Of a stretch of 64,000 nt of DNA, positions 30,456 to 50,390 are shown piece after piece (within the stretch, counting starts at the first letter, position 1; each line of letters opens with the position of its first letter). Source of the DNA: Acidipropionibacterium thoenii DSM 20276. GTDB lineage: Bacteria; Actinomycetota; Actinomycetes; Propionibacteriales; Propionibacteriaceae. The position numbers were made by a program, and so were the translations under genes. The stretch covers positions 1-64,000 of the forward strand of contig NZ_AUHZ01000007.1 in NCBI RefSeq assembly GCF_000423445.1, read 5' to 3'. Under the pieces are notes generated by a model. That model was not told the origin of the DNA, made no database searches, and saw only the letters and a program-made list of their open reading frames with translations.

Positions 30456-31165
30456 TGGACACCTCTCGTCCGATCATCGCCCTGGACCTGCCCAGCGCGG
30501 ACCAGGCGCTGGCCCTGGTCTCCCGGTTCGGCGACGAACCGTTGTTCGTCAAGGTCGGCATGGAGTTGTTCTACGCCTCCGGGCCGGGCATCGTCACGGC
30601 CCTCAAAAAAGCCGGCCATGACGTCTTCTGCGATCTGAAACTCCATGACATCCCCACTACCGTCAAACGTGCGGCCGCCAGCCTGGCCGGCCTCGGCGCC
30701 GACCTGCTCACCGTCCACGCGGCCGGCGGCAGAGCCATGATGGAGGCCGCCCTGGAGGGATTGTCGGGGGCGGCCAACGACCCGGCAGTGGTGGCCATCA
30801 CGCAGCTCACCTCGACCTCCGAGGAGGCGATGCACGCCGAGCAACTCATCGAGGCCCCGCTGGCCGAGTCGGTCGTCCACTACGCCCGACTGGCCCAGTC
30901 GGCCGGACTGGCCGGGGTGGTCTGCTCGGCATGGGAGGCCGCCGGTATCGGCGAGGCCACCGGAGACTCCTTCCTGAGGGTGACTCCTGGGATCCGGCCG
31001 GCGGGCGCTGCGGTCGGCGACCAGGCACGGGTCGCCACCCCCGAGAGGGCCTCGGCAATGGGGTCCTCGGCCATCGTGGTGGGACGCCCCATCACCCGGG
31101 CCGATGATCCGGTGGCCGCCTATCACGCCATCAAGGAGGCCTGGAACTCGGGCCGTGCGGCCTGA
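30455..31165 (+). CDS. pyrF: Orotidine 5'-phosphate decarboxylase (type 1)
   Basis: Last step of UMP synthesis. 236 residues. The active-site motif [12 protein letters not shown] (the D-x-K-x-x-D pattern) is near residue 58, with [13 protein letters not shown] at the start, LTVHAAGG, and the phosphate-binding loop VTPGIRPAG with the final [15 protein letters not shown]. This is the short type 1 form; many actinobacteria such as mycobacteria carry the longer type 2. ATG at 30455 overlaps the pyrD stop (TGATG). Confidence 0.95.
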
Positions 31166-35549: not shown

Positions 35550-35825
35550 ATGAAGGTTGCCCTGCTTCGAGAAATGCTCGGTGAGGCGCTGCGTGAGCAG
35601 AGGTTCGCCCAAGGGCGAACACTACGTGAGGTGTCATCGGGAGCGAGGGTCTCGCTGGGCTACCTCTCAGAGGTGGAGCGAGGCCAGAAGGAAGCTTCCA
35701 GCGAACTGATACTGGCGATCTGCACGGCCCTGGAGCTTCCCCAGTCCGAGCTGATGAGGATGGTCAGCGAGAAACTGCTGAAGGCCGAGACCAAGGCTGA
35801 GCGTCAGGTCACTGCCGCCGCCTGA
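35550..35825 (+). CDS. clgR: ClgR-type XRE-family transcription regulator
   Basis: Short helix-turn-helix activator of clp protease and related genes in actinobacteria, itself degraded by Clp. 91 residues. The HTH segment [34 protein letters not shown] is almost the family consensus. The C-terminus ends in AA (VTAAA), consistent with Clp-type turnover signals. ATG 35550 with GAGGAG upstream. Downstream of cinA; the 101-base gap likely holds its promoter. An inverted repeat lies inside its 5' coding part. Confidence 0.9.
35603..35620. repeat. Inverted repeat GTTCGCCC-AA-GGGCGAAC inside the clgR 5' coding region
   Basis: Eight-base perfect arms with a two-base centre at codons about 18-24 of clgR. 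It resembles the GTTCGC/GCGAAC halves of ClgR boxes, but the inner CGC...GCG spacing is six instead of the five I recall for the consensus. It could be an intragenic operator or coincidence with the coding sequence. Confidence 0.4.
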
Positions 35826-37163: not shown

Positions 37164-37205
37164 TTGTCCACAGGGCGGAGTCTCACTGTGGCGGTGTTGT
37201 CCACA
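37164..37205 (+). promoter_or_regulatory. Two DnaA boxes (TTGTCCACA) in direct orientation upstream of recA
   Basis: TTGTCCACA occurs at 37164-37172 and again at 37197-37205. These are exact matches to the 9-mer DnaA box of high-GC actinobacteria, on the same strand and 33 bases apart (three helical turns). They lie 23 bases upstream of the recA RecA-NDp promoter. Confidence 0.6.
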
Positions 37206-37227: not shown

Positions 37228-37250
37228 TTGTCGGTGCCCGCCCCTACAGT
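37228..37250 (+). promoter_or_regulatory. RecA-NDp (PafBC-dependent type) promoter of recA
   Basis: TTGTCGGTG at 37228-37236, then exactly eight bases, then TACAGT at 37245-37250. This fits the TTGTCRGTG-N8-TAnnnT promoter described for LexA-independent DNA-damage genes in mycobacteria and relatives, at every fixed position. I see no LexA box (GAAC-N4-GTTC) near recA. Confidence 0.8.
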
Positions 37251-37340
37251 TCACCATGACAGACCCGGCCGTCCGGCCGGGACCAGCGGAGCCCGGCCAC
37301 GTGGACTGGAGCAGGGCCCATGGATGAGGAGACCACAGCC

Positions 37341-38392
<1,052 letters not shown>

Positions 38393-38396
<4 letters not shown>

Positions 38397-38923
38397 CCCG
38401 GCGGGGGGCTCGCAAGCCGGCCGAGGACCGCCCCGAACGCAGCCCCGAGCAGTGGCACGAGTTCGCACGTGAGGCAGTGCTGCGACGCCTCGACGTGCGA
38501 GCGAGGACCCGCCACGAGCTGGCCACCGCACTGCGTGACAAGGAGGTCCCCGAGGAGATCGCCACCGCTGTGCTCGAGCGATTCGCCGAGCTCGGCCTGA
38601 TCGACGACGCCGACTTCGCCGAGCAGTGGGTGCGCTCGCGGCATGAGTCACGGGGCCTGTCGCGGCGTGCCCTGAGCCAGGAGCTCAGACTCAAGGGGGT
38701 CGACCAGAGGATCATCGCCGAGGCTGTCGCCGAGGTCTCCGACGATGATGAGCTCGACGCCGCCACCCAGCTCGCCGTCGGCCGGCTGCGATCCGGTCAG
38801 GGGGTCGAGAAGGTGCGTCTGGACCGCCGGGTGCTGTCGGCCCTGGCCCGCAAGGGCTACGGACCCGAGGTCTGCTGGGAGGCCCTGCGCCGAGCTCGAG
38901 GTGAGCTCGGCGAGCAGGAGTAG
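38393..38923 (+). CDS. recX: Regulatory protein RecX, probable CTG start
   Basis: Inhibitor or modulator of RecA filaments. Family features: [59 protein letters not shown] and the third repeat [14 protein letters not shown]. The first ATG/GTG in frame is GTG 38477 (148 aa), but that cuts off the conserved helix [10 protein letters not shown]. No ATG, GTG or TTG lies in frame upstream nearby, whereas CTG 38393 follows GGGGAGG (38379-38385) by seven bases, overlaps the recA stop (CTGA) and gives 176 residues, close to the mycobacterial RecX length of about 174. I therefore infer a CTG start coupled to recA. Confidence 0.85.
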
Positions 38924-47100: not shown

Positions 47101-47104
<4 letters not shown>

Positions 47105-49152
47105 GCGCGGCGACCCCGGCCGCCGAGGACTCGGATCCGGCCTACCGGCAGCTGCTGGATGCCGCGGTCGCCGGGATCGGCGGGAGTCCCAGAACCGGAC
47201 AGCTGAGGATGGCCGAGGCCCTCGACCGGGCGATCGACGAGAAGATCCACCTGTTGGTGCAGGCCGGCACCGGTACCGGCAAGTCCTTGGGCTATCTGGC
47301 GCCGGCGCTGGCCAGGGCGGTCCGCGACGACGTCACGGTGGTGGTCGCCACCGCCACCCTGGCGCTCCAGGCGCAGCTGGCCCACAAGGACATTCCGGCG
47401 GCGGTCAGGGCCGCCGGGAAGGTCCTGGCGCGTACCCCCCGCACCGCAGTGCTCAAGGGGCGCTCCAACCACGCCTGCCTGCTGAAGGTGCGCGAGGGAG
47501 TCCGGCCGGACCAGGACGCCCTGGTCAGCGGTGGCGAACTGGTGAGCCGTGACGACAGCTCGGCCGGCCGATCCGCCGGCGCGGTGGACTCCGAGTCCCG
47601 GTTGGGGGCCGAGGTGGTGATGCTGCGCGAGTGGGCCGAGGACCAGGCCGGGCGCAGCCTGCTCGGCGACCGCGACGACGCCCCCGATCACTCCCCGAGG
47701 GCCTGGTCGCAGGTATCGGTGCCGGCACGGGAGTGCCTGGGCAACCGCTGCCCCTATGTCGAGGAGTGCCTCTTCGAGAAGGCCAGGGAGAAGGCCCGGC
47801 AGGCCGACCTGATCGTCACCAACCACGCCCTGCTGGCCATCGATGCACTCAACGATGGCAGCGTGCTGCCCGAGCACGAGGTCGTCATCATCGACGAGGC
47901 CCATGAGGTGGTCGACCGGTTCACCGGAGCCGCCTCGGCGCTGCTCACCCCCACCCTGGTCACCGCAGTCGGCAGACGCGCAGCCACCTGGCTCGACGAT
48001 GACCTGGCTGCCGATCTGCTCGGTCAGGCGGACCTGCTGCACGAGGCCCTGGAGGCCACCGAGCCCGGCCGGGTCACCGACCCCGGCGCCGGTCTCATCG
48101 TCGCCGCCCAGAGCCTGCGCGATCTGGCCAGGAGCGCCGTCTCGGCCCTGGGACGCAGTGATGACGGTGAGGAGGCCGGCGGGGACCCCGAGCGTGTCCA
48201 GGCCCAGGGGGCGGTCCGCGAGGTCTTCGAGGTGGCCGAGCGGATCGCCGCGCTGTCGGCCGCCGACGTGGTCTGGATCAGCGAGTCGGAGTACACCGGA
48301 CGCGCCGCCCAGGTGGCACCGCTCAAGGTGGCCGGGCTGCTGAGGTCCAGCGTGCTGGCGGGGGCCACCACCATCCTCACCTCGGCCACCCTCAGGATCG
48401 GCGGGGAGTTCACCTCGGCCGCCCGGGATGTCGGCCTGCAACCGGGCGAACGGGTCGACGACACGCCCGAGATTCTCCAGACCGAGATGGCCTGGCGAGG
48501 CATCGACGTCGGCTCCCCCTTCGACTATCACTCCCAGGGCATCCTCTATGTCGGGCGCGAGCTGCCGAAGCCCAGCCGCGACGGCATCGGCGAGGAGGCC
48601 TTGGAGGACCTGGCCGAACTCGTCTGGGCTGCCGGTGGCCGCACCCTCGGCCTGTTCGCCTCCCAGCGCAACGCGGTGCGCGCCGCCGAGCAGCTGCGCA
48701 AGTCCCTGCCCAGGATCCCGGTGCTGTGCCAGGGGGAGGGGCATCTGGCGGGGCTCACCCGCCAGTTCATCGAGGACCCGGCCACCTGTCTGTTCGGCAC
48801 TCTGTCGCTGTGGCAGGGGGTCGACGTGCCAGGAGACACCTGCCGCCTCGTCATCATCGACAAGATCCCCTTCCCCCGCCCCGATGACCCGCTGATGCAG
48901 GCGCGCAGCCAGGCGGTCGCGCAGGCCGGGGGCAATGGATTCATGACCGTCTCGGCCGGACATGCGGCACTGCTGCTGGCCCAGGGATCCGGACGCCTGA
49001 TCCGACGCGCCGAGGACAGGGGAGTGGTGGCCGTGCTGGATCCCCGTCTGGTGACGGCCCGATACGGCTCCTTCCTGCGTGCCTCGATGCCGCCGTTCTG
49101 GACCACCACCGACCGCGAGGTCGCGATCGGGGCGCTCAGGAGGCTCAGCTGA
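47101..49152 (+). CDS. dinG: DinG/XPD-family ATP-dependent DNA helicase
   Basis: 5'-3' superfamily 2 helicase with an iron-sulfur cluster, resolving R-loops or damage structures. 683 residues. Walker A VQAGTGTGKSLGYLAPAL; cluster cysteines in SNHACLLKVRE and CLGNRCPYVEECLF (C-x4-C-x5-C pattern); DEAH box VIIDEAHEVV; motif VI GSGRLIRRAEDRGVVAVLDPR. GTG overlaps the hflX stop (GTGA), so the two are co-translated. The next actinobacterial neighbour, lexA, is not found beyond it. Confidence 0.92.
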
Positions 49153-49302
49153 GCCCAGCGGTTCGACCCCTTTGTCATCCCTTGGCGGCGGCTCTGCTGG
49201 CGCCGGCCAGGCGTCGAGGAGGCCGAAAAGTGTCAGTCCCCCTCGGTTGGATGGAGTCATGTCCTCGGCGGATGGCCGGGAATCTGACGAAGGAGCACTC
49301 CG

Positions 49303-49856: not shown

Positions 49857-50390
49857 ATGAGGTGTCCATTCTGTCAGCACGACGACTCCCGGGTCCTGGA
49901 CTCGAGGGTCTGTGAGGACGGCCTGGCGATCCGTCGGCGTCGGCAGTGCCCGGTGTGCGAGCGCAGATTCACCACCATCGAACGGATGCAGATGGTGATC
50001 GTCAAGAAGGACGGCTCGGAGGAGCCGTTCAGCCGGGAGAAGGTCGTCTCCGGGGTCCGCAAGGCCTGCAAGGGCCGCCCGGTCAGCGACGCCGACCTGG
50101 CCCGCCTGGGCCAGCGGGTCGAGGACGCGCTGCGGGCCGGGGGAAGCTCCGAGATCCCCAGCGATCAGGTCGGCCTGGCCATTCTGCCGCCGCTGCGGGA
50201 ACTCGACCCGATCGCCTACCTGAGGTTCGCCTCGGTCTACCGGCACTACGAGACGATTGACGACTTCATCCTGGAGATCGAGCGGTTGAGGGCCGAGAGC
50301 AGCGACGACCCGTCGGATTCCGGCGGCAGGCCGCTGGCGGCCCAGGTCCCCGGGTCCGGAGGGGACATGGCCAACCAGCCGTTGTTCTGA
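49857..50390 (+). CDS. nrdR: Transcriptional repressor NrdR
   Basis: Zinc-ribbon and ATP-cone repressor of ribonucleotide reductase genes; senses ATP/dATP. 177 residues, longer than the usual 150-155 because of a Ser/Gly-rich tail. Zinc ribbon [17 protein letters not shown] with [13 protein letters not shown], then the ATP-cone [18 protein letters not shown] with KAC and the [19 protein letters not shown] end. ATG 49857 follows AGGAGG. It carries its own operator boxes and precedes nrdJ by 136 bases. Confidence 0.95.

Follow-up and report, generated by a model that had tools for sequence, protein, structure and literature searches.

The recA locus and its promoter motif

The window analysed here, the first 64,000 nucleotides of contig NZ_AUHZ01000007.1 of Acidipropionibacterium thoenii DSM 20276 (genome of 2,938,072 bases in 45 contigs), contains recA, a recX-like ORF and then, in order, miaB, miaA, dapF, hflX, a dinG-like gene, a small ORF, nrdR and nrdJ, and the same order was found in L163-L166; all of these names except recA, nrdR and the dinG-like gene were given by eye. 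The RecA product scored far above the curated RecA cut-off, and the alternative start of the gene (Table 1) aligns with residue 1 of many relatives. In the 86%-complete genome G063 of the same genus, recA lies in two frames (L166, 16033-17084), which reflects either a frameshift or an assembly error.

Table 1. Features of the window discussed in the text.
Feature	Position	Strand	Remark
TTGTCCACA box 1 (DnaA-box-like, competence-promoter-like)	37164..37172	+	exact copy
TTGTCCACA box 2	37197..37205	+	exact copy; lies three helical turns ahead of the PafBC motif
Predicted PafBC-dependent (RecA-NDp) promoter motif, TTGTCGGTG-N8-TACAGT	37228..37250	+	exact consensus match, kept in the genus
Predicted -10 hexamer TACAGT	37245..37250	+	invariant in the five-genome alignment of the genus
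recA	37320..38396	+	TIGR02012 above cut-off; alternative start 37341
recX-like ORF	38477..38923	+	named by position alone
DinG/YoaA-like helicase, left border of the lexA slot	47101..49152	+	best NCBIfam matches YoaA and DinG, below cut-offs
lexA slot of relatives, here 150 bp without LexA similarity	49153..49302		tblastn negative
nrdR, right marker of the lexA slot	49857..50390	+	TIGR00244 above cut-off

The forward strand at 37228-37250 reads TTGTCGGTG CCCGCCCC TACAGT and fits the RecA-NDp motif TTGTCRGTG-N8-TAnnnT, the first base of which is taken as weak, exactly; 70 bp separate its end from the first recA start. A first-pass annotation of the sequence had claimed that every fixed position is matched with a spacer of exactly eight bases, that the window holds no further copy and that no LexA box lies upstream of recA. 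All of this was confirmed, as the match is the sole exact one on either strand of the window, none occurred in 100 shuffles, and GAAC-N4-GTTC with up to one mismatch was found nowhere between positions 35606 and 40923. The gene is without the upstream operator expected of a LexA/SOS member, and the only two exact LexA palindromes of the window, at 30536 and 55566, were ruled out as operators, both being within ORFs. The finding itself is real: an exact RecA-NDp-type motif stands before recA, and a LexA box does not.

The exact PafBC core was present in the recA promoters of all five genomes of the genus, and in their alignment TGTCGGTG was unchanged throughout, while the flanking sequence had diverged. 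As expected of a RecA-NDp promoter, the motif stands before a gene of the DNA-damage response and is conserved among relatives. A second exact copy of the full motif in the A. thoenii genome lies at C15:40386-40408, before a metallophosphoesterase gene named SbcD-like by eye. There is also an ATG at 37256-37258, 5 bases past the -10 of the recA motif, and each of the five genomes has ATG, GTG or TTG at this place; a leaderless leader ORF from 37256 was set aside, since start codon, frame and stops vary among them.

Loss of lexA in the genus

The five Acidipropionibacterium genomes (genus g1) were compared within 147 genomes of the Propionibacteriaceae (family f1). A Pfam search detected the LexA DNA-binding domain in 140 of the 147, in one of them (G013) only at E 3.6e-4; none of the five genomes of the genus, two of which are single-contig, had it, in comparison to 140 of the other 142 family members, where the two further misses were G062 (59% complete) and G095 (91%). 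In relatives, lexA lies between a dinG-like gene and nrdR, on the strand opposite to recA. Searching this slot by tblastn with family LexA (E up to 1) gave no match in the window or in L163-L166, whereas the same search returned LexA at 53-65% identity in Arachnia (L054), Propionicicella (L055), G053 and G110. The named organisms came from a scan for HflX that gave 80 loci, 20 of which (L053-L071 and L105) were inspected for recA and 7 of which had it. In the neighbouring genus g13, presumably Cutibacterium, the usual slot holds a divergent LexA of 26-28% identity (n=6, L167-L172); the G013 locus (L174) stops short of the slot, and the LexA of that genome was not placed. Judged from these genomes, lexA is deleted in Acidipropionibacterium, its syntenic slot is closed and the flanking genes are retained, and A. 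thoenii thus encodes no LexA under which recA could be an SOS gene. Because lexA is missing across the whole genus, the suggestion of the first-pass annotation that recA is driven mainly by PafBC becomes stronger.

The operators left in the genome were also counted. CGAAC-N4-GTTCG occurs 6 times in A. thoenii, 5-8 times in the genus and 0-30 times in the rest of the family, and such counts alone are no proof of lost SOS control. The R-N-N-Y spacer, which is typical of recA boxes in relatives, was seen in 0 of the 6 A. thoenii sites. For a transfer test of LexA targets, 20 LexA-palindrome loci were fetched from four LexA-positive genomes; 13 of them carried an R-N-N-Y box (14 boxes, 9 inside ORFs), and three of the 6 downstream proteins tested could be named, as ruvC, DUF6504 and DUF2891. 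A parallel to recA is seen in the ruv genes: in LexA-positive G037, ruvC has a LexA box over its start, whereas in A. thoenii the ruvC-ruvA-ruvB stretch lacks a LexA box and carries a PafBC motif ahead of ruvB. A general move of LexA targets to PafBC control was dropped and is not claimed, because the ruv genes alone fit it.

recA promoters across the family

The upstream regions of recA were compared in 61 genomes (A. thoenii and 60 chosen from the other 146, covering 26 of 29 genera), with motifs counted within 330 bp upstream of the gene. The five promoters of the genus contained 0 exact LexA palindromes and 5 exact PafBC cores. In the 49 other LexA-positive genomes outside g13, 45 had the palindrome and 33 had the PafBC motif with up to one mismatch, 14 of these being exact. 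First-order Markov resamples of all 61 regions gave 0.4 LexA palindromes, 0.0 exact PafBC motifs and 0.1 PafBC motifs with up to one mismatch. Where both motifs were present, the LexA box started 77-84 bp ahead of the PafBC motif in 25 of 31 promoters. The simplest history suggested by these counts would be an ancestral double control of recA, of which Acidipropionibacterium lost the LexA half; since the genus kept the PafBC half alone, PafBC is probably the main damage regulator of its recA.

The seven g13 genomes with divergent LexA (G013 included) had 0 LexA palindromes and 0 exact PafBC motifs at recA, and two one-mismatch PafBC motifs at other positions. Their recA motif has decayed even though they encode a PafC homologue, and motif and regulator can therefore part. 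These genomes (G013, G035, G069, G082, G093, G103 and G117) form a group whose recA has neither the usual LexA box nor an intact PafBC motif, and their divergent LexA may read a new operator.

PafB, PafC and the motif in the genus

On the first reading, control by PafBC hung on whether pafB and pafC are in the genome, and both are: A. thoenii has only two WYL-domain matches, which are adjacent. The best PDB match of the second protein was the chain PafC of 7p5x, 9fnd and 9fne, the best matches of the first were the chains called "Transcriptional regulator-like protein" in the same three entries, and both also matched the fused PafBC 6sj9. PMC6789036 gives F42, R44, F46 and R48 as the recognition-helix residues of PafB, and in the alignment to 6sj9 this F-x-R-x-F-x-R pattern is fully retained in A. 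thoenii. A PafC homologue was found in 142 of the 147 family genomes, including five of five in the genus. Inspected by eye, the 12 kb around pafBC showed ORFs resembling tatA and tatC on the downstream side and no ORF resembling pafA on the upstream side.

Further copies of the motif, which the first-pass annotation had proposed to look for, were found. The core TGTCRGTG-N8-TAnnnT occurs 18 times in A. thoenii and 12, 24, 7 and 4 times in the other four genomes, in comparison to 1, 0, 2, 1 and 0 for the reversed pattern in the same five, and many A. thoenii copies precede repair genes, with uvrA, uvrB, ruvB, recR and dnaX among the genes downstream. The range of 4-24 in the genus lies inside that of the 142 other family genomes (0-40), which therefore gives no sign of regulon growth upon LexA loss, and growth of the PafBC regulon after that loss is not supported. 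With only 7 and 4 strict sites in two members, the regulon is not uniform across the genus.

We examined the downstream ORFs of 64 of the 65 sites in the genus (G063 C4:309745 was left out, and the G063 recA site was read in L166), with names given by Pfam, NCBIfam or similarity to a named member, and by eye for clpC, lhr and SbcD. Genes of repair, replication or recombination lay downstream of 29 of the 64: recA 5, ruvB, dnaX and DEDD exonuclease 3 each, uvrA, uvrB, lhr-type helicase, gyrB/parE and RecF-like AAA_21 2 each, and recR, recG, xseA, the SbcD-like gene and a umuDC-linked ORF 1 each. The other sites included rph (2), clpC (1), clpP (1), DUF222 genes (14) and restriction or anti-phage genes (8, including one Swt1-like HEPN without a PADLOC match, with one weak match not counted), and the remainder received no name. 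The site L008 (C2:78063) was rejected as probably due to chance, having no recognisable downstream gene.

Several groups among these sites deserve mention in their own right. A umuD-umuC pair lies at L251:4699-6410 (G000 C17); a PafBC motif stands some 1.1 kb ahead of it, in front of an orphan ORF, and UmuD is the single strong LexA-like match in the A. thoenii genome. The 14 DUF222 genes (one by Pfam, 13 by similarity; L010, L021, L135, L139, L154, L158, L162, L274-L276, L278 and L283-L285) carry a strict PafBC motif 65-252 bp upstream; the related 13E12 genes are LexA targets in mycobacteria. The restriction-modification or anti-phage genes behind PafBC-type motifs were found at L133, L137, L138, L142, L143, L147 and L160, which belong to A. 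acidipropionici and A. virtanenii, and at L272, from G047, where the gene is a type I methyltransferase. G003 and G027 together have 11 strict sites; PADLOC-type genes follow 6 of them (type II and type III methyltransferases, TmtA, MzaC and two PDC-S60 genes, one assigned by similarity), and the Swt1-like HEPN follows 1. Such copies hint that defence may be damage-inducible.

Tandem boxes upstream of the motif

Upstream of the PafBC motif at recA, TTGTCCACA occurs twice in direct orientation, with box 1 and box 2 starting 65 and 32 bp ahead of the motif's TGTC; the window has no other exact copy. The pair was present at recA in all five genomes of the genus, in two of them with one mismatch per box. 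Across the family, a plus-strand box with up to one mismatch was found in 47 of the 61 recA promoters and a minus-strand box in 3, in comparison to a Markov expectation of 3.9 on either strand. Among the 40 promoters having a PafBC motif with up to one mismatch, 28 had a box upstream of it and 12 had none, and the spacing from box to motif was 31-33 bp in 25 of the 28 and 61-63 bp in the remaining 3; as measured on these promoters, the spacings correspond to about three helical turns and to twice that. The spacing at five named loci was similar, with 31 bp in Arachnia, 33 in Propionicicella (a locus also counted as G024), 32 in Pseudoclavibacter, which is of another family, and 30 and 61 bp in two MAG contigs. 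Of 63 distinct motif sites in the genus, only four recA sites and one DUF222 site had a box 20-90 bp upstream, which makes the box a feature of recA and not of PafBC promoters generally.

Box pairs were then counted elsewhere. They occur 2 times in A. thoenii, 5 in G027, 3 in G047, 2 in G063 and 9 in G003; with a looser pattern 9 of 20 other family genomes had pairs and 11 had none, and the reversed pair gave 0 in all genomes searched. By Pfam, similarity or position we sorted 50 pair loci, consisting of 20 of the 21 in the genus and 30 of 35 other places. They comprised Tad-pilus genes (11), DUF559-type nucleases (6, weak Pfam matches), M23 peptidase (5), ssb (4, two being the same place), recA (4), yraN-comM (3, with the boxes in opposite orientation), DUF4192 (2), comEA (1), a phosphoribosyltransferase (1, below the Pfam cut-off and ComF by eye) and dnaA, dnaB and nrdR (1 each), and 10 received no assignment. 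DNA-uptake machinery genes known from competence were downstream of 20 of the 50, a count obtained with a motif that was first seen in an alignment and then used as the query.

In 20 of 47 distinct contexts GANAACT began exactly 46 or 47 bp downstream of where the second box starts, with a start codon a few bases further; it was absent at that distance in the other 27, which include comEA, yraN-comM and recA. The geometry of the pairs, in which the boxes lie about 28-34 bp from each other and the second precedes the -10 region by 46-48 bp, is shared by the recA promoter, whose boxes are 33 bp apart with TACAGT 48 bp after the start of the second; TACAGT takes the place of GANAACT there as the -10 region. 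The tandem boxes look like a competence-type operator that recA shares, and they may be described as a candidate competence or DnaA operator. The TTGTCCACA 9-mer matches the high-GC DnaA box and occurs by dnaA, which makes DnaA the first candidate binder. No published operator for these boxes was found in the open-licence literature, including passages of PMC8467076, nor was any paper there joining "DnaA box" with "recA promoter", and the competence regulon of M. luteus was called unknown in a 2026 paper (PMC12849477).

Proposed explanation and its alternatives

The loss of lexA, the pafBC pair, the motif with its further copies and the conserved boxes can be read from the genome sequences. 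The explanation we favour, with a probability of roughly 0.8, is that the motif is a PafBC-dependent recA promoter, that lexA and its operator at recA were lost, and that PafBC is the main driver; the first and the last of these had been suggested by the first-pass annotation and are supported by the presence of pafBC, the exact core in five of five genomes and the copies before repair genes. We infer from these comparisons that PafBC would bind at recA and that the gene would be induced. In the family, recA would ancestrally have responded to damage through both a PafBC motif near the gene and a LexA operator some 80 bp further upstream; in Acidipropionibacterium, lexA was deleted and the operator disappeared, with the PafBC motif staying exact. 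On damage, the single-stranded DNA that arises would be bound at the WYL domains of PafBC, and PafBC would let housekeeping sigma-A RNA polymerase start recA together with genes of repair, replication and nucleases, with TACAGT as the putative -10 and transcription starting near 37256. The activation mechanism is taken from work in M. smegmatis as given in PMC11804915. By homology to this route, the damage signal would reach recA without RecA filaments and without LexA. The tandem TTGTCCACA boxes, peculiar to recA among the PafBC promoters examined, would add a second input through another factor that binds them, and they show that another regulator may matter as much.

The strongest alternative carries this last point further and takes the factor on the tandem TTGTCCACA boxes, DnaA or a new competence activator, as the main input of recA, leaving PafBC a basal or minor one. 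The excess of plus-strand boxes over expectation and their almost constant spacing to the PafBC motif speak for it, as does the presence of the box in all seven g13 genomes, where neither the LexA box nor an intact PafBC motif is left; yet the box is missing from the plus strand in 14 of the 49 LexA-positive relatives and from 12 of the 40 promoters with a PafBC motif, and that motif is exact throughout Acidipropionibacterium, so that we regard this alternative as unlikely. Much less probable still is a constitutive recA whose sigma-A promoter uses TACAGT as the -10, with the 5' half of the motif being a relic. Such a -10 alone could suffice for the housekeeping polymerase, and the two g13 recA promoters that were read fully (L333 and L335) keep TACAGT with a decayed PafBC half, but TGTCGGTG is invariant between diverging flanks in five genomes, and A. 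thoenii has 17 other core copies, many before repair genes. That a LexA is present but was overlooked, being highly diverged, moved or missing from the assemblies alone, is scarcely credible even with the very divergent LexAs of neighbouring g13 in mind, since the Pfam search detected six of these (E 3e-9 to 1e-6) and none in the genus, two genomes are single-contig, the slot is closed, and a full-length LexA search of the five genomes (E up to 1) returned one strong match, the UmuD-like protein of A. thoenii at E 2e-12, and no match stronger than E 0.012 in the other four.

With control by PafBC as the preferred reading, a wider proposal can be put forward tentatively, as a possibility somewhat short of even odds: a genus without LexA would run its damage response on PafBC, and its recA promoter would join the PafBC regulon with the tandem TTNTCCACA operator, recognised by DnaA or a new activator, of an undescribed competence regulon of the Propionibacteriaceae (comEA, ssb, comM, Tad pilus, DUF559). 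What is new is a PafBC-type recA promoter in a LexA-free genus together with an upstream element that has no description in the open-licence literature, in which we also found no paper on lexA in Acidipropionibacterium. If the proposal is right, the genus would be a natural test of PafBC acting by itself, free of the LexA branch that overlies it in mycobacteria, and the conserved box pair would be a first handle on the switching of competence genes in high-GC Gram-positive bacteria.

Comparison with known systems

The closest known system is the mycobacterial recA P1, the RecA-NDp promoter of PafBC, which has the same motif and spacing and the same pafB-pafC pair, and the motif likewise stands before recA, uvrA, uvrB, ruv and other repair genes. 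One key difference is that mycobacterial recA also has a LexA-controlled P2 (PMC11804915), while A. thoenii has neither the operator nor lexA. Another possible difference is the pair of tandem TTGTCCACA boxes at the A. thoenii gene. The canonical actinobacterial LexA/RecA SOS response, which relatives in the family have, shares recA as its core target, but both the repressor gene and the recA operator are lost in the whole genus Acidipropionibacterium. Among bacteria lacking LexA, Helicobacter pylori, to our knowledge, likewise has none, and A. thoenii differs in having what appears to be the regulon of a WYL-type activator on its repair genes. Finally, the tandem TTGTCCACA boxes resemble those of actinobacterial com promoters as found at the ssb and Tad genes of Propionibacteriaceae, from which the recA promoter of A. 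thoenii is distinguished by its PafBC motif and TACAGT.
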